From IMG/VR virus record IMGVR_UViG_3300034418_007207, positions 1-21,472 of that record: a DNA stretch of 21,472 bases; one strand, 5' to 3'. The stretch comes from a virus. Below, piece after piece: positions 837-14,426 of this stretch. The notes beneath the pieces are model-generated. The model searched no databases, was not told where the DNA came from, and was given only the letters and a program-made list of their open reading frames with translations. Numbering within the stretch: position 1 is the first letter of the stretch; each line of letters begins with the position of its first letter. The position numbers were made by a program, and so were the translations under genes.

Positions 837-876
837 AAATCACCCCATTTTCTTGCACAAACATAACATTGAGCCA

Positions 877-908
877 GAAATAAAGAAACCCCGCACCGAA
901 GTGCGGGG
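877..908 (-). terminator. Rho-independent terminator after terL
   Basis: On the minus strand there is a perfect 8-bp stem CCCCGCAC/GTGCGGGG closed by a TTCG tetraloop (889-908), followed by TTTCTTTATTTC. This is a textbook intrinsic terminator about 100 bp past the terL stop. It separates terL from the small and Gly-rich genes further left. Confidence 0.9.
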
Positions 909-1007
909 CAAGTTGGGCAGGTTGCCCCACCAACAGAGAGGAAACTAAATGACGAAACTTCCCAACGTCACCGAGCACAGACACCCTTGCACGGCATCCC
1001 CACCCTG

Positions 1008-3488
1008 TCAAACGATTCCTCGAATGTTTCGCCTCAAGGACCGCTTCCAGCCACCCGTGAAACTCGTCCCGTAAGCCATCGTCGTGTGATCTGTCGCCAG
1101 GCACAGACACACCGCATCGGCTCGGTCAGGTGACTTCAGGCCACGCTTTTTGATGCTTTCCTTGCTTTCAACCTGAATTTTTCCCGTAGACGTGAACGAA
1201 TACCGGGGCGAGGCCAGTTCCGCGAACAATTGCTCGTCCCTCGGCAAACTCACGTCCCGGTTCTCCAGCCATTCCTTCGCCTTGAACCACAGTTCCGCTC
1301 GCGTGTTGATGTAAGTCGCGTTGCTCGCAGCCCTCTCAGAGACGTTCAGACCCCTCGCAGGCAGCCCCAACTCCCTCAGACGGTCCAACACCCCCGCACC
1401 CAGCCCAATGCTGTCCACGATGATCTCCGCAGGCCTCAGATGCGGCGGTGACGTGTCATACTCCACCTTCACCGCGCCCGTAAGCTGCATCAGGTCCAAA
1501 TTCCCCCACACCCGCAGCGGATGCACCACCGGCCCCTGGCGCTTGCACAGCACCGAACTGTCATTCCCGTGACGCGCCACGTCCAGCCCCCAGATCGCCG
1601 TCGTGTTATCGTCAATCCGCACCTCGTTGTGCATAGCATGCTCGATCAGATCGACCGGAATCACCGTATCATCTTCCGCAGGCGGGAAGTTCCCCAGCAC
1701 GCGCACATGATACGCCGGGCTATCCTCCCCATAGCGCAGCTTCATCTCAGCCACAAAGTCATCACTGACCCTCGGGCTATCAATGCAACTCACATGCATC
1801 GTGTACCAATCGCCCCGCAAACGATGGTGCGTATCGTAAAACAGACCCGTATTCCGCGTCGGGTTCCCCGTCAGGATCGTCGTCGCACTATGACCAGACA
1901 TCGATCCCGCAGCACTCTCAAACACAGCTTCCGGCACACCGCTCGCCTCGTCCGCAATCAGCAACACATGCGGACTGTGTACCCCCGCCAAGGCCTCTGG
2001 CTGTTCCGCTCGGCTCGTTCGGCAACTGATAAACGCATCCGCCGCACGGCTCTTCAACTCAATGCGATCAGCCTTTACCTCGATCAAAGACGCAAACGGC
2101 TCTTTCATCTGCTTGGCCATCCGCTTGACCTCAGAAAACAACGCGTCAAACAACTGAGCACTCGTCGGGGCAGTCATCACCACCTTACCAGGTACCCGCC
2201 AGATCAAATGCCACAGAGACGCCATCGCAACCGCGCTGCTGTTATGCGTCACATGGAAATCATCCGTCAGATACAGGCTGTCTTTCGCCTCAACCGTGAT
2301 GCACATGCCGTCCAGCAAGCCAACCGGCTCAATGCTATCAATCCAACGCTTCAAATACCGTTCTTCACTGGCAGGCTTGAACGCCGCGCGCCGCTCCTCA
2401 TGCGTAAACGGATTGTCCGGCACCTGTATCGTGGCACGATATGCCAGACGCCCATTCCGCAAGTTCCCATCCCCATCGCGGTATCGAGGTTGCTTAACCG
2501 CCTCCTGCTTCATCGCCTTGTAACCCAGCGAGCGAGCCAACCAAACGACATCATCCAGCAACCGCTCACTCGAACTGGAATAACCACAAGAACCGCTCGC
2601 CTGAACCTCTCCATCCCCATCCATCAAGCCTTCAAACAGTGCCCGACGCTGCGCAACGCCGGCATACTTGTAAGCGTCAGGAATGTATTTCTCCCAACTG
2701 CGGCACGCAAAAACCGGATCAGACTCCCAGTTCACCTTTGTGATGCCAACCGATCTCCCGTTCGATCTAGCCGTCACCCCACCATGATGCCGCGCAGCCA
2801 GTTTTTCGCGCACGGCAGGGCTGTCTTTGGCAATCACACCCCGACTACCATCACCGAGCCAAACACCCATCACATACGGATCAAGCGGCAAACCCTCCAC
2901 ATGAGCAAACCGCACCGCCCCCTGAATCGGTATCTCCCACTGCCGAGCCATGTTCGCCCCATTCGAGCGCTTTACACCCGCCGCAATAAGCCCCTGCGTC
3001 TCCATAAGCCGCCAGCCCAAACCCTTCCGACGGTCTTGCCTACCCTTCACAAGCCATTCATGCTCACCAGACACGACAACACTCGACCGATCGTCAAACG
3101 TCACCCGGTAATGCTCTCGCCTATAGTGATTCGTTGCAATCACCCGCGTCGGAACACCGTCAGCCCCGAACACGTAATCACCGATTTTGATGTCACCCCA
3201 CCTCACCACTTTCATGCCCGTCGCCTCCAAATGACCATCCGGAGACAATGCCACCTGACACGGAATTAGGCAATCCTCATCAACACATTTACCTTTCCCC
3301 ACACCGTGCCCTGATCGCACACTGACACGCCGCAACTTCGGGTCAGCCACAGTCTGCAAAAACTCCACCTGCCAAGGATCAGGATTAACACCCAACACCT
3401 CTTGCGCAAACAACACAGGCGCATTCCCACCACGCCCGTAGCGGTCAGCTAACTTGAGAAACGGATTGGCCTGTTGCTGGTCACTCAT
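1008..3488 (-). CDS. terL: Terminase large subunit (TerL), interrupted by an intein
   Basis: This is the DNA-packaging motor: an ATPase that drives DNA into the prohead plus a nuclease that cuts the concatemer. The precursor has 826 residues; removing the intein (residues 68-416) leaves a 477-residue TerL, normal for the family. The Walker A loop GHGVGKGK (60-67) continues with Ser417 only after splicing. Walker B is LLIADEAS (509-516) and the coupling motif is ILTGNPTR (538-545). The RNase H-like nuclease acidic residues are D636 (WGLDVARHGND), D692 (IIVDSIG) and the SPDRADAV motif (786-793). AAGGAGG sits 8 nt before the ATG. The start overlaps the stop of the upstream small gene by ATGA. 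TerS lies about 690 bp upstream on the same strand. No catalytic residue appears to be missing, so the protein should be active once spliced. Confidence 0.96.
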   Translation of the reverse strand: MSDQQQANPFLKLADRYGRGGNAPVLFAQEVLGVNPDPWQVEFLQTVADPKLRRVSVRSGHGVGKGKCVDEDCLIPCQVALSPDGHLEATGMKVVRWGDIKIGDYVFGADGVPTRVIATNHYRREHYRVTFDDRSSVVVSGEHEWLVKGRQDRRKGLGWRLMETQGLIAAGVKRSNGANMARQWEIPIQGAVRFAHVEGLPLDPYVMGVWLGDGSRGVIAKDSPAVREKLAARHHGGVTARSNGRSVGITKVNWESDPVFACRSWEKYIPDAYKYAGVAQRRALFEGLMDGDGEVQASGSCGYSSSSERLLDDVVWLARSLGYKAMKQEAVKQPRYRDGDGNLRNGRLAYRATIQVPDNPFTHEERRAAFKPASEERYLKRWIDSIEPVGLLDGMCITVEAKDSLYLTDDFHVTHNSSAVAMASLWHLIWRVPGKVVMTAPTSAQLFDALFSEVKRMAKQMKEPFASLIEVKADRIELKSRAADAFISCRTSRAEQPEALAGVHSPHVLLIADEASGVPEAVFESAAGSMSGHSATTILTGNPTRNTGLFYDTHHRLRGDWYTMHVSCIDSPRVSDDFVAEMKLRYGEDSPAYHVRVLGNFPPAEDDTVIPVDLIEHAMHNEVRIDDNTTAIWGLDVARHGNDSSVLCKRQGPVVHPLRVWGNLDLMQLTGAVKVEYDTSPPHLRPAEIIVDSIGLGAGVLDRLRELGLPARGLNVSERAASNATYINTRAELWFKAKEWLENRDVSLPRDEQLFAELASPRYSFTSTGKIQVESKESIKKRGLKSPDRADAVCLCLATDHTTMAYGTSFTGGWKRSLRRNIRGIV
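2241..3287 (-). mobile_element. Intein with LAGLIDADG homing endonuclease, in the TerL P-loop
   Basis: This is an in-frame 349-residue intein (TerL residues 68-416). It begins with Cys (CVDEDCLIP, block A) and ends YLTDDFHVTHN with the expected penultimate His and final Asn; the first residue of the downstream extein is Ser. Block B is seen as VVVSGEHEWLV, where the His fits the family's splicing His. Two dodecapeptide endonuclease motifs are present, GVWLGDG (208-214) and GLMDGDG (287-293), each keeping its acidic residue (D213, D292), so the endonuclease looks intact. Insertion lies inside Walker A, between Lys67 and Ser417, a typical conserved site for inteins in ATPases. Base composition does not differ obviously from the TerL flanks by eye. 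Confidence 0.96.
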
Positions 3489-4176: not shown

Positions 4177-4644
4177 CTATTCCTCGCCTTCCTCCCACGC
4201 CTCAAGCTCCTCGTAATCACCTTCAAGCACAGCGCCCACCACCTCATCACCAACCAGTTCGGCCACCTGCGCATGCAGGTCTTCAATCCTCAACGTCACT
4301 GTCGTTTCGCGCTGGCGTACATCGTAATCCTGATTGAGTTTACCGGCCATCCACTTATCAGTATCGACCTTGAGCCTAGCCATGTTCACCAAAGCAGGAT
4401 CATCCACGCCCTGCGCCGTTTCCACGGCTCGCGCAGCGTAGGCATGACCTGCTAGCTTGAGTGCGTCTTGATATCGATCTGCCCGTCCGTCTGCTTTGCG
4501 CAGGAACCTGTAGAAGATACGCAAGCCTACTTCGTATTCACGGCACAGGCTGTTGACGCTTTCGCCATTGGCGATCCGGTCGAAGATTGTATCCTCTCCG
4601 ATCTGTTCCAGCTTGGCGATCTTCATGTCTCCGATTTTGGACAT
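4177..4644 (-). CDS. terS: Terminase small subunit (TerS)
   Basis: A 155-residue DNA-recognition subunit of the packaging terminase. The N-terminal half has a helix-turn-helix-like segment (GESVNSLCREYEVGLRIFYRF, around residues 27-47). This is followed by the ARLKVDTDKWMAGKLN stretch (about 88-103), typical of small terminase subunits, and a very acidic C-terminal tail ending EELEAWEEGEE. The length is normal for the family. The start at 4644 is supported by AAAGGG 8 nt upstream; an internal ATG at 4626 has its GGAG too close. It lies 4 nt after the winged-helix gene, so the two are cotranscribed. terL follows only after about 690 bp, which is unusually far. Confidence 0.88.
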   Translation of the reverse strand: MSKIGDMKIAKLEQIGEDTIFDRIANGESVNSLCREYEVGLRIFYRFLRKADGRADRYQDALKLAGHAYAARAVETAQGVDDPALVNMARLKVDTDKWMAGKLNQDYDVRQRETTVTLRIEDLHAQVAELVGDEVVGAVLEGDYEELEAWEEGEE

Positions 4645-8301: not shown

Positions 8302-8336
8302 TGCGTATTGACGCAGAACGTGCCACATGATAGCGC
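8302..8336 (+). promoter_or_regulatory. Divergent control region: operator and probable rightward promoter
   Basis: TGCGT (8302-8306) and ACGCA (8311-8315) form an inverted repeat. TTGACG (8308-8313) followed by 17 nt and TAGCGC (8331-8336) gives a plausible alphaproteobacterial promoter 30 nt before the ATG at 8366. The core GTATTGAC is shared with the TTGTATTGACA motif at 5.3 and 14.9 kb. The operator overlaps the -35, as expected for repression. Confidence 0.5.
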
Positions 8337-8365
8337 TGGTCGGCAAGACAAAAAGGAAGGTTACA

Positions 8366-8716
8366 ATGCTAGAAGAAGAAATCATGAAACTGCGTTACGC
8401 CGTCGAGGCCCTGACGGCCCAGCTTGCTGGCGCACAGACACCCACAGTCGAAGAGCCTGTTGAAGAGGGTGTCGAAGAGCCTGTTGAAGAGCCTGTTGAA
8501 GAGGCTGTCGAAGAGGCTATCGAAGAGCCTGTCGAACCCACAAAAGATGTGGTGACTGCCGAAGAGTTGCACGCGCTGGCGCTAAGTATTTCTCGTGAAA
8601 AAGGCCCCAAGGTCATCAAGGACGTGCTTGCCAAATATGGTGCCAAGCGGATCGGAGCGATTGACGCTAAACATTACGCCGAAATCAAGGCGGCGCTTGA
8701 AGCGGAGCAAGGCTAA
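8366..8716 (+). CDS. Acidic-repeat protein at head of early operon (116 aa)
   Basis: A 116-residue protein in three parts: a short N-terminal helix (MLEEEIMKLRYAVEALTAQL), an acidic repeat built of VEEP/VEEA/IEEP units (about residues 28-57), and a C-terminal helical domain (residues about 62-116) with SREKGPKVIKDVLAKYGAKR near its middle. Similar C-terminal domains occur in small phage proteins next to recombination genes, but no function is known to me. The acidic linker could mimic nucleic acid or hold partners apart. GGAAGG lies 5 nt before the ATG at 8366. The stop overlaps the DUF2800 start (TAATG), linking it to the nuclease. Confidence 0.82.
   Translation: MLEEEIMKLRYAVEALTAQLAGAQTPTVEEPVEEGVEEPVEEPVEEAVEEAIEEPVEPTKDVVTAEELHALALSISREKGPKVIKDVLAKYGAKRIGAIDAKHYAEIKAALEAEQG
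8447..8536 (+). repeat. 12-bp coding tandem repeat (VEEP units)
   Basis: Seven full and one half copies of a 12-bp unit close to GTYGAAGAGSCT (last full copy begins ATC). They encode the acidic linker. The synonymous changes at the third codon positions suggest it expands and contracts by slippage under protein-level selection. Confidence 0.85.
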
Positions 8717-10537: not shown

Positions 10538-12325
10538 ATGGCACTGATCCTAGATGTTGAATGTTACTCAAATTTTTTCTTGGTCTGCTTTATGGACCTC
10601 GACACTGGCAAAGTCGGCTCGTTCCAAATGCACGAAGGTAAGCCGCTAAACGTGTCAAAGATCGCGCATTTGATGCGGTCGCACACGACAGTCGGCTTTA
10701 ATTCAAGTCAATATGACCTGCCGATGATCGCTGCGGCGCTTGAAAACCGATCCTGCGATGAGTTGAAAAAGGTCAGTGATGCCATCATCACAAGCAACCT
10801 GCCAAGCTGGCGAGTGTTGCAAGACCTTGGTGTCAATGTGCCGGATGCTTGGGACCACATTGACATCATTGAAGTCTTGCCAGGGCGGGCGGGCCTTAAG
10901 GTCTACGCCGGGCGGATCGGATACCCCAAGCTGCAAGACCTGCCAATCGAGCCAAGCGCGATGATTAGCCCTGACCAGCGCGATCTGCTGAAACAATACT
11001 GCATCAACGATGTGCGTGTGACTGCTGAACTGTACCAGATGATGGGCAAGCAGATCGCGCTGCGGGTTGATATGGGTCAGCAGTATTCTGTTGATCTGCG
11101 GTCGAAGTCGGACGCGCAGATCGCTGAGACTGTGCTGAAGAGTGAAATTGAAGGGGTCAGCGGTAAGACGCTGCGGCCCCAGCGGCTGAGAGACGACGCG
11201 AGGTTTCGTTACCTTGATCCGAAGATCATCAGCTTTGAAAGCGATCATCTTACAGACATTCTGAAGCGCATCATGGCCGAGGGCTTTGAACTGTCTGCTA
11301 ACGGGTCAATCAAACTGCCCGACTGGCTGAAGGATACCCGCATCAAGATCGGCCAGAGCGAGTATCAGATGGGGATAGGTGGTCTGCACTCATGCGAAAA
11401 GGGCCGGAGCGTCTACGCTGGTCAGGATCACATCTTGGCGGACTTCGACGTGGCGTCATATTATCCCAGCATCATCCTGCAACAGAAGATCGCCCCCGAT
11501 AACATGGGCGACGACTTCACGGACATATACAAGAGTATCGTGGAACGCCGCCTCGCAGCAAAGCACGCGGGCGACAAGGTAACGGCTGACACCTTAAAGA
11601 TCGTCGTCAACGGGTCGTTCGGTAAGCTTGGCAGCAAGTATTCAACTCTTTACGCCCCTAATCTTTTGATCCAGACCACAATCACGGGGCAGTTGGCCCT
11701 ACTGATGCTGATTGAACGGCTTGAGGCAATCGGCGCGTCGGTAGTCAGCGCAAATACGGACGGTATTGTGGTGTTTGCCTCAAAGGCGCTGGAAGACAGC
11801 ATAGCGGATGTGGTGTTTTGGTGGCAGGTGGATACGTCGTATGAACTTGAGCGCAGCGATTACACGTCGCTGCACAGCCGCGACGTTAATAACTACATCG
11901 CTGTAAAGGGCGATGGGTCTTACAAGGCCAAGGGCGTGTTTTCGGAACCTGGGTTGATGAAAAATCCGCAGTTCCCGATTGTCTCAGAGGCCGTGGCCAA
12001 GCACCTCAGCGGACAAAGCGATTATCGTGACGTGATACGCTCATGCAAGGATATTGGCCGGTTCGTCATGCTCCGCAAGGTGACCGGTGGGGCGGTATGG
12101 CGCGACGAACCCTTGGGGAAGGCCGTGCGGTTTTACTACAGCACCGAAGTCGCTCCTGACGAAACGATCAATTACGCTAAGAACAGCAACAAGGTACCGC
12201 AGTCCGATGGGGCAAGACCCTGCCTCGATCTGCCCGATCAGTTTCCAAATGACGTAGACGTGGAGCGTTATGTTGGGATGGCTCGGATGGTGTTCAAACA
12301 ATTGGGGATTGGCATTGATGCTTGA
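10538..12325 (+). CDS. Compact family-B DNA polymerase with 3'-5' exonuclease
   Basis: A 595-residue replicative DNA polymerase of the B family. Exonuclease motifs: ILDVE (D6, E8), VGFNSSQYD (N55, D60), YCIND (Y154, D158). Polymerase motif A: DFDVASYYPSII (302-313). Motif B: KIVVNGSFGKLG (354-365). Motif C: ANTDGIV (405-411). All are complete, so it should be active. The size is near that of small phage enzymes such as phi29 polymerase and much below the 800-900 residues of larger B-family enzymes. No sign of protein priming is seen nearby; the primase-helicase on the other strand probably supplies primers. GGAGG lies 9 nt before the ATG. The end overlaps the VRR-NUC start. Confidence 0.92.
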   Translation: MALILDVECYSNFFLVCFMDLDTGKVGSFQMHEGKPLNVSKIAHLMRSHTTVGFNSSQYDLPMIAAALENRSCDELKKVSDAIITSNLPSWRVLQDLGVNVPDAWDHIDIIEVLPGRAGLKVYAGRIGYPKLQDLPIEPSAMISPDQRDLLKQYCINDVRVTAELYQMMGKQIALRVDMGQQYSVDLRSKSDAQIAETVLKSEIEGVSGKTLRPQRLRDDARFRYLDPKIISFESDHLTDILKRIMAEGFELSANGSIKLPDWLKDTRIKIGQSEYQMGIGGLHSCEKGRSVYAGQDHILADFDVASYYPSIILQQKIAPDNMGDDFTDIYKSIVERRLAAKHAGDKVTADTLKIVVNGSFGKLGSKYSTLYAPNLLIQTTITGQLALLMLIERLEAIGASVVSANTDGIVVFASKALEDSIADVVFWWQVDTSYELERSDYTSLHSRDVNNYIAVKGDGSYKAKGVFSEPGLMKNPQFPIVSEAVAKHLSGQSDYRDVIRSCKDIGRFVMLRKVTGGAVWRDEPLGKAVRFYYSTEVAPDETINYAKNSNKVPQSDGARPCLDLPDQFPNDVDVERYVGMARMVFKQLGIGIDA

Positions 12326-12584
12326 GAAGGACATTGAACGGGCGCTGGTGCAGCGCGTAAAGGAACTGGGTGGCATGGCTGAGAAGTTTGTCAGCCCGAC
12401 GCGACGCGCCGTGCCAGACCGGATCGTAACGCTCCCAGGGGGTCGGGTGATCTTTGTTGAGTTGAAGGCCCCCGGCAAGAAACCGACAGACCTTCAGGCG
12501 CGCGACCATGAGCGTCGCCGGGCGCTGGGGTGTGATGTGCGCGTGATCGACAGCATGGAGGCAGCCCGTGCTTTCGAGGGGTGA
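12318..12584 (+). CDS. VRR-NUC domain nuclease (88 aa)
   Basis: An 88-residue stand-alone VRR-NUC domain, a PD-(D/E)XK nuclease related to Holliday-junction-type enzymes. The core reads VPDRIVTLPGGRVIFVELKA, with the acidic D, E and K of the active site (about residues 36-53), followed by a Lys-rich helix. The ATG at 12318 lies inside the polymerase stop region (8-nt overlap), so translation is coupled. Phage VRR-NUC genes typically lie between a polymerase and an SNF2-type helicase, as here apart from the inserted HNH gene. It likely resolves branched DNA during replication or before packaging. Confidence 0.9.
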   Translation: MLEKDIERALVQRVKELGGMAEKFVSPTRRAVPDRIVTLPGGRVIFVELKAPGKKPTDLQARDHERRRALGCDVRVIDSMEAARAFEG

Positions 12585-12646
12585 TCTTGACAGACCAACC
12601 CCTTGTCGATATGGGGTTGGTAAACATCTATTTTGGGGGTTTGCAT

Positions 12647-13114
12647 ATGGCCGATTTGGGCGATTGCGTAGATTGCGGGGAACCTGTTCATTCGACGGGA
12701 AGATGCAAAAAACATTATAAATCATGGTGGCATAAGCAACCCTACAAAGACTGCGAGTGCGGCTGCGGAAAGAAAACAAAAGGTCGCTACGCCAAAGGGC
12801 ACCACACTCGGTTTTTTACGAATGACGAACAGCGCCGCCGAGCCAAAATGAATGATGGTTCAACACAAAGAGAAAGAGGTGATTTGACAAGCACTCATTA
12901 TAGGAAGGTGCGTGGCCAGCACGAACACAGATTGGTTGCTGAACAAAAGTACGGCAGGGTTCTTGGGCCAGATGATATTGTTCATCACGTAGATGGAAAC
13001 AAAAGAAATAACCACCCTGACAATTTGCAGCTCATGACGCGGAGTGAGCATATCGCTGTTCACAGAAAAGAAATGGTGGAGGCGTTGCGTGCTAAATCGA
13101 AAAAATCTTCATAA
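12647..13114 (+). CDS. Free-standing HNH endonuclease (homing type)
   Basis: A 155-residue HNH_3-type endonuclease. The N-terminus carries likely zinc ligands (CVDCGEP, RCKKH, CECGCGKK). The catalytic part reads HEHRLVAEQKYGRVLG then DDIVHHVDGNKRNNHPDNL and ends SEHIAVHR. The ATG at 12647 follows GGGGG 8 nt upstream; a GTG at 12581, overlapping the VRR-NUC stop, would add 22 residues. It is much richer in A+T than its neighbours (22 G/C in 12841-12900 against 36 in 12421-12480), a sign of recent acquisition. It overlaps the helicase start by 26 nt. It is probably a selfish homing gene inserted between two replication genes. Confidence 0.88.
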   Translation: MADLGDCVDCGEPVHSTGRCKKHYKSWWHKQPYKDCECGCGKKTKGRYAKGHHTRFFTNDEQRRRAKMNDGSTQRERGDLTSTHYRKVRGQHEHRLVAEQKYGRVLGPDDIVHHVDGNKRNNHPDNLQLMTRSEHIAVHRKEMVEALRAKSKKSS

Positions 13115-14426
13115 ATATCAAGAAAAAGCCGTTGAATTTGTTTTAAGAAAAGAACGCTGCGCGCTTTTTCTTGGGCTAGGTCTCGGCAAAACGGTCACTA
13201 CCCTCACAGCCATCAGCGACATGCTGGGGGCTATGGTGGCAAGCAAGGTGCTGGTCATCGCGCCCCTGCGTGTTGCGAATAGCGTGTGGGCGCAGGAGGC
13301 GCGCGCGTGGCGGCATTTAGAGCATTTGAGGGTGTCGGTATGCACCGGGCCGGAGAAGGCCCGTAGGGCCGCGCTGAGTCTCGATGCGGACGTGTACGTT
13401 ATCAACCGCGAAAACATCATGTGGTTGGTTGAAAATTATGGCAAGCGGTGGGAATTTGACACGGTGGTCATTGATGAGAGTTCTTCGTTTAAGAACTCGT
13501 CAAGCAAGCGGTTCAAAGCCCTCAAGAAAATGTTGCCAGCGATTGAACGTATGATCCTGTTGACTGGCACGCCGTCGCCAAACGGGCTTTTAGACCTTTG
13601 GCCGCAGATGTATCTGATCGATTACGGGCAGCGTCTGGGCCGCACACTGACAGGTTACAAGCAGCGCTTTTTTGAGCAGGATTATATGGGCTATCGCTAC
13701 ACACCACGCGCGGGGTCGTCTGACCGTATTCACGAATTGATCGGGGATAAAGTGATCCACATGAGCGCGGAGGATTACTTAGACCTGCCCGACCGGATCG
13801 ACATTGAACAGCGCATCGACATGCCCACCAAGGCGTTGAGCGATTACAAAGATTTTGAGCGCACGATGTTGGCAGAACTTGATGACGAGGTGGTCGAGGC
13901 CACGACTGCGGCGGTGTTGGCCAATAAGCTTCTGCAATGGGCGAACGGGGCCATGTACACCGACGAGAACAAGAACTGGGCGCAAACCCACACGGCCAAG
14001 CTAGACGCCTTGGCGGAGATCGTTGAAGACAATGAAGGCGAGAACATTCTCGTTGCTTACAATTACAAGAGCGATCTTGAACGGCTGTTGACGCGCTTCC
14101 CGCAGGCGCGCGTGTTAGACAAGCAACAAGACACTATTGATGCGTGGAACCGTGGCGAAATCCAAATGCTGCTGGCCCATCCGGCATCCGCCGGGCACGG
14201 GCTTAACCTTCAACGCGGTGGCGCGCTTTGCGTCTGGTTCGGTCTGAACTGGTCCCTTGAGTATTACCAGCAGTTCAACGCGAGACTACACCGGCAAGGA
14301 CAGACCCGCCCGGTGCGAATCGTTCATATCGTTTGCAAAGACACGATTGATGAGCGCGTATTGACTGTGTTGCGCGACAAGGACGCAGTTCAAGGGGCGT
14401 TGCTGGCGGCCCTCAAGCCGACTTAG
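13089..14426 (+). CDS. SNF2/DEAD-type helicase
   Basis: A 445-residue SF2 helicase of the phage SNF2-like kind. Motif I is LGLGLGKTV (about 28-36), motif II VIDESSSFK, motif III LLTGTPSPNG; the second RecA-like lobe has HPASAGHGLNLQ (motif V) and QFNARLHRQGQTRPV (motif VI). All helicase motifs are complete, so it should hydrolyse ATP and move on DNA. The GTG at 13089 is chosen because GGAGG lies 6 nt before it and the typical opening (LHKYQEKAVEFV) follows directly. It overlaps the HNH gene by 26 nt. Its 3' end overlaps the convergent DUF6378 gene by 14 nt. It probably helps replication fork processing or recombination. Confidence 0.9.
   Translation: MLNRKNLHKYQEKAVEFVLRKERCALFLGLGLGKTVTTLTAISDMLGAMVASKVLVIAPLRVANSVWAQEARAWRHLEHLRVSVCTGPEKARRAALSLDADVYVINRENIMWLVENYGKRWEFDTVVIDESSSFKNSSSKRFKALKKMLPAIERMILLTGTPSPNGLLDLWPQMYLIDYGQRLGRTLTGYKQRFFEQDYMGYRYTPRAGSSDRIHELIGDKVIHMSAEDYLDLPDRIDIEQRIDMPTKALSDYKDFERTMLAELDDEVVEATTAAVLANKLLQWANGAMYTDENKNWAQTHTAKLDALAEIVEDNEGENILVAYNYKSDLERLLTRFPQARVLDKQQDTIDAWNRGEIQMLLAHPASAGHGLNLQRGGALCVWFGLNWSLEYYQQFNARLHRQGQTRPVRIVHIVCKDTIDERVLTVLRDKDAVQGALLAALKPT

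Follow-up and report, generated by a model that had tools for sequence, protein, structure and literature searches.

A probable mobile class 3 intein bearing a LAGLIDADG endonuclease in the Walker A motif of a phage terminase large subunit

The TerL locus

The window analyzed here, that is, the whole 21,472-nt stretch of DNA, is an IMG/VR virus record. A terminase large subunit (TerL) gene on its minus strand contains an in-frame insert with the features of an intein. The key features are listed below, and the conservation counts come from an unfiltered tblastn tally of 182 homologous loci.

1008..3488, minus strand: TerL precursor gene, 826 aa plus stop; single open frame, the spliced product of which matches phrog_2 and Terminase_6N
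3294..3488, minus strand: N-extein, TerL residues 1-65, ending with the Walker A sequence GHGVGK; intein-free relatives run straight into Ser/Thr
2241..3293, minus strand: intein, probably class 3, Gly66-Asn416, 351 aa; delimited from relatives that lack it, from a block A profile and from the structural register
3285..3287, minus strand: Cys68, third residue of the intein; replaced by Thr in L045 and by Pro in L048, hence not conserved
3216..3260, minus strand: block A hairpin expansion, approximately residues 77-91 (limits approximate); 12-15 extra residues compared with other relatives, forming a hairpin in the model
3054..3062, minus strand: block B His143-Glu144-Trp145 (B:10 to B:12); His in 182/182 loci, Trp in 180/182
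2358..2903, minus strand: LAGLIDADG endonuclease domain, approximately residues 196-377, the range aligned to I-Tsp061I; Pfam LAGLIDADG_3
2850..2852, minus strand: D213, acidic residue of LAGLIDADG motif 1 (GVWLGDG); Asp in 165/182
2613..2615, minus strand: D292, acidic residue of LAGLIDADG motif 2 (GLMDGDG); Asp in 182/182, a count partly built in, since D292 was included in the patterns used to search for loci
2301..2303, minus strand: Cys396, fourth position of block F and predicted nucleophile of the class 3 pathway; Cys in 182/182
2241..2249, minus strand: block G Thr414-His415-Asn416; Thr in 181/182, His in 181/182, Asn in 182/182
2238..2240, minus strand: Ser417, +1 nucleophile and Walker A Ser; Ser/Thr in 170/179 loci
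1008..2240, minus strand: C-extein, Ser417 to residue 826 plus stop, the remaining ATPase and the nuclease part; homologous to intein-free TerL

Once residues 66-416 are removed, the remaining 475 aa match phrog_2, the phage terminase large subunits (1.9e-43), and the match to Terminase_6N exceeds the family cut-off. A terminase small-subunit gene lies upstream of TerL (4177-4644). A 582-aa open frame on the plus strand (1521-3269), antisense to the C-extein and the intein, resembles a shadow frame of TerL and not a gene. Elsewhere in the window, a small predicted protein (8327-8716, plus strand) contains a Glu/Pro/Val-rich repeat (EEPVEEGVEEPVEEPVEEAVEEAIEEPVEP).

Boundaries of the insert

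More than 30 intein-free TerL relatives, found by scanning viral contigs and phage records, have the sequence GHGVGK|S/T, with no residues between Lys and Ser/Thr; the nearest is 84% identical over 466 residues. In the window, the junctions read SGHGVGK-GKCVDEDC...VTHN-SSAVAM. Because the intein-free relatives join GHGVGK directly to Ser/Thr, the insert consists of residues 66-416 and interrupts the bond Lys65|Ser417. The original prediction of an intein in the TerL Walker A motif, ending with His415-Asn416 before Ser417, is thus borne out, as is the insertion itself by the proposed alignment of intein-free homologs across the junction. The start that it gave, Cys68, is two residues off, so that the intein has 351 aa instead of 349; the lysine next to the insertion is Lys65 and not Lys67, which belongs to the intein, and the expected mature TerL has 475 aa instead of 477.

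The same prediction named a segment shared as a normal domain by homologous TerL proteins as a finding that would count against an intein, and what these relatives display is the lack of the segment. The possibility that the insert is instead an ordinary domain of TerL, or that the gene is broken, for which we found no supporting point, is further contradicted by the intact frame, the predicted intein fold and the purifying selection described below, and can be given next to no weight. Separately, one intein-free TerL relative (L040, 3986-5414) is frame-shifted, probably through a sequencing error or because the gene is broken.

The register of the N-terminal junction can be compared with that of related inteins. 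The L045 intein, 84% identical to that of the window, starts with GK|GHTFDYDC, those of L046 and L048 with GK|GRCKST and GK|GSPCN, respectively, and Cys68 is therefore not conserved. A block A profile built from 64 relatives scores +7.3 in the window with Gly66 as residue 1, compared to +1.5 for Cys68 and +3.7 for Cys73. The Gly66 register is clearly preferred by L046 and L048, with +10.6 in L046 for the Gly66-type register against -7.6 for the +2 register; L045 block A by itself does not separate the registers (0.6, 0.8, 2.3). Among 68 relatives, residue 1 is Ala in 33 and Gly in 15, and is Cys in just 2.

Two other starts were considered and rejected. If Gly66-Lys67 were a two-residue insert kept in the mature P-loop, it would have no counterpart in any intein-free relative; its second residue varies (K/H/R/S), and the dipeptide moves with the intein between unrelated terminases. 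Cys73 as residue 1, proposed because CLIPCQVALSPDG resembles a class 1 block A, is ruled out by the intein-free relatives, and the profile scores in L046 and L048 are against it, this register being the top-scoring one in L045 alone.

Intein class and predicted splicing pathway

Blocks A, B, F and G are all present, followed by the terminal His415-Asn416 and then Ser417, and these blocks had been recognized, along with the two LAGLIDADG motifs, in the original prediction. Class 1 inteins have Cys, Ser or Thr as residue 1, whereas residue 1 here is Gly66. Class 3 inteins are defined by the lack of an N-terminal nucleophile together with Trp at B:12, Cys at F:4 and Thr at G:5 (PMC3196547; PMC5050341); Gly66 is no nucleophile, and the WCT signature is complete (Trp145, Cys396, Thr414). 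In the unfiltered tally of homologous loci, Trp is found in 180/182, Cys in 182/182 and Thr in 181/182, and His143 in 182/182; residues of the intein are shared across the 182 loci far beyond chance. A regex survey that required H.W and an HN end is biased, and the 68 sequences chosen by regex were also required to contain WCT, so neither set was used for conservation counts. The best PDB sequence matches of the insert are the mycobacterial DnaB inteins 6rix, 6riy and 6bs8, all of class 3 (PMC7664689).

An intein of class 1 starting at Cys68, as originally predicted, would leave Gly-Lys in the mature P-loop and produce a TerL of 477 aa. In favor of this reading, Cys68 could act as a nucleophile, the sequence CVDEDCLIPC bears a loose resemblance to block A of class 1 inteins, and the profile score in the +2 register is positive, if low (+1.5). 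Set against these points are Thr at this position in L045 and Pro in L048, the Gly-Lys dipeptide that occurs in no intein-free relative and travels between unrelated terminases with a variable second residue (K/H/R/S), the full WCT signature, and the placement of Gly66 as residue 1 in the structural register. We regard this reading as very improbable. The sequence features together indicate a genuine intein that belongs to class 3, not class 1, and is probably functional.

Since residue 1 is not a nucleophile and WCT is present, the first nucleophile should be Cys396. In the predicted pathway, Cys396 in block F would attack the Lys65-Gly66 peptide bond to form the branched thioester of class 3, the acyl group would then move on to Ser417 (+1), and cyclization of Asn416 would free the intein. 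The acyl shift would give a normal 475-aa TerL with an unbroken P-loop, GHGVGK-SSAV, and the Walker A sequence GHGVGK-S in this product has the form found in intein-free relatives. Splicing of the class 3 AceL NrdHF intein was lost in an Ala1-to-Gly mutant (PMC7891396), but Gly1 is natural in 15/68 relatives. As a consequence of the change in class, the residue to mutate is Cys396 and not Cys68.

Predicted structure

The AlphaFold model of the intein, obtained with the alignment of 68 sequences, has a pLDDT of 91.7 and a pTM of 0.90; without an alignment, the pLDDT is 33. In VIA-align comparisons, the whole intein matches many solved inteins (Z 12-26), including forms of PI-SceI (Z up to 25.9, rmsd 3.2, 315 aligned) and the class 3 DnaB inteins 6riy (Z 16.1), 6bs8 (Z 15.9) and 6rix (Z 15.8), with 122-127 residues aligned, and the endonuclease domain matches I-Tsp061I (2dch; Z 14.2, rmsd 3.3, 159 aligned). 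The predicted fold is thus a HINT splicing fold combined with an endonuclease, as in intein-endonucleases and, for the splicing fold, class 3 DnaB inteins.

Gly66, model residue 11, is superposed on residue 1, and Asn416, model residue 361, on the final intein residue, of 6bs8, 6rix, PI-SceI (1vde), PI-PfuI (1dq3) and 2cw7, and Gly66 likewise falls on residue 1 of 6riy, a register that is partly dependent on the AlphaFold input alignment, in which the GK of all members was already in register. The block A expansion of 12-15 residues, limited to the window, L045, L046/L047 and L048, is the sole distinctive feature of this intein and may have no role.

The homing endonuclease and intein mobility

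Both LAGLIDADG motifs are intact with their acidic residues, D213 and D292, and LAGLIDADG_3 is matched with 26.9 bits, above the Pfam cut-off of 22.5, in agreement with the earlier description of a complete endonuclease. Between the window and L045, dN/dS is 0.13 for the endonuclease, 0.15 for the whole intein and 0.13 for the extein. The value of 0.13 means that the endonuclease is still constrained by purifying selection. The L046 intein is 69% and its terminase 32% identical to the counterparts in the window, and the respective values for L048 are 63% and 29%. The presence of related inteins in such dissimilar terminases is best explained by horizontal movement between terminases.

According to the prediction, the endonuclease would cleave terL genes that lack the intein at the conserved codons of the P-loop, upon which the intein would be copied in. 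Within the TerL clade of the window, the intein is in the minority: it is present in the window, L008 and L009, which represent one phage type, and in L045, against roughly 25-30 intein-free contigs, so that intein-bearing alleles occur in two phage types only. The 40 nt at the junction are 62-78% identical between the window and close intein-free relatives, and one pair known to be cleavable is 75% identical (PMC5050341). Homing by this endonuclease today is plausible. At +1/+2, the window (2235-2240) and L045 have the codons AGC AGY (Ser-Ser), and close intein-free relatives have TCN ACN (Ser-Thr); the AGC AGY codons following the intein might be a mark of imported flanking DNA. Block identities reveal no clear co-conversion tract around the junction.

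Alternatively, the intein might splice while its endonuclease no longer homes, with inheritance being vertical only. The identity between the window and L045, 84% for the intein and 86% for the extein, is as expected under vertical descent, and the first LAGLIDADG motif contains SDG instead of GDG in L045, L046 and L048. Given the retention of D213 and D292, the purifying selection on the endonuclease (dN/dS 0.13) and the related copies in unrelated terminases, we consider this scenario unlikely, albeit a serious contender. With high confidence, we favor a mobile class 3 intein, Gly66-Asn416, that carries a two-motif LAGLIDADG homing endonuclease and separates Lys65 from Ser417 in the Walker A motif of a phage TerL. 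The boundaries, the WCT signature, the predicted intein and endonuclease fold, the purifying selection and the related copies in unrelated terminases are read directly from the sequence; the chemical steps of splicing, the activity of the endonuclease and its homing today are inferred.

A free-standing HNH_3 endonuclease gene (12581-13114, plus strand), flanked on one side by a VRR-NUC gene (12270-12584), overlaps the listed start of an SNF2-type helicase (13044-14426) and is possibly a second mobile endonuclease of the same phage.

Splicing and DNA packaging

Before splicing, the precursor should have a broken Walker A motif, as originally suggested, and splicing is very probably needed for packaging. 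It does not follow that splicing times packaging, which had also been proposed. A switch based on conditional splicing would fit the expected inactivity of the Walker A motif in unspliced TerL, and there is a precedent in the class 3 intein DnaBi1, which is inhibited by H2O2 through oxidation of the catalytic Cys (PMC6195587). Nevertheless, the window intein shows no sequence signs of conditional splicing, the TerL inteins assayed splice fast to the ligated product (PMC5050341), and packaging goes on without an intein in many close relatives, so we give such a switch only a small chance. A narrower version of the idea, in which the hairpin and extra cysteines of the Gly1/block A hairpin subfamily (window, L045, L046/L047 and L048) would make splicing conditional and hold the TerL ATPase and packaging until a cellular signal such as a redox change, is likewise very unlikely.

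Relationships with known inteins

Inteins in the TerL P-loop are common and well described, as are class 3 inteins that bear LAGLIDADG endonucleases, contrary to the earlier impression that a full-size, endonuclease-bearing TerL intein is less common. About 40% of mycobacteriophage inteins reside in TerL, P-loop sites are the commonest among TerL1 sites, and one of these lies between Lys and Thr (PMC5050341); LAGLIDADG motifs are found in 82.5% of 1701 class 3 inteins surveyed (PMC7891396), and 708 phage records match at least 80% of the window intein.

In mycobacteriophages, the TerL1-a and TerL1-b inteins (Kelley et al. 2016, PMC5050341) likewise interrupt Walker A of TerL, and TerL1-a separates the invariant Lys from the hydroxyl residue, the exact site of the window intein. 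Five TerL-type inteins splice, and two of the five cut intein-free terL (PMC5050341). The likeness to TerL1-a and TerL1-b is one of site; they come from other phages, and the window intein differs in its Gly start and block A hairpin expansion. The class 3 inteins MP-Be DnaB, Dra Snf2 and MP-Catera Gp206 (PMC3196547) resemble it in having WCT and not needing an N-terminal nucleophile. The Msm DnaBi1 and Mch DnaB1 structures (6bs8, 6rix, 6riy) share the splicing fold of the model (Z 15.8-16.1), and DnaBi1 has the same combination of P-loop insertion and Ser at +1, but these three structures are of endonuclease-free mini-inteins, and the protein that hosts them is a helicase.

Among the closest relatives, the inteins of L045, L046/L047 and L048 (84%, 69% and 63% identical to that of the window) have Gly1 and the block A expansion in common, whereas the terminases of L046 and L048 are only 29-32% identical to the window TerL. 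The locus contributes an uncultivated-virus example of class 3 inteins occupying the P-loop in unrelated terminases, together with a small intein subfamily with an enlarged block A hairpin, and leaves knowledge of inteins or packaging in general unchanged. The Salmonella phages 66FD, 65FD and PAT1 (MT580117, MT580116, MT261384) carry a TerL intein at the same site, GHGIGK|...HN|S, with WCT and LAGLIDADG motifs and 36% identity over 97% of the window intein, but without the block A expansion and with Ala as residue 1. In the 66FD record (L006, MT580117.1), the product of the TerL gene (869-3319), with its class 3 intein at the P-loop site, is named only terminase large subunit.
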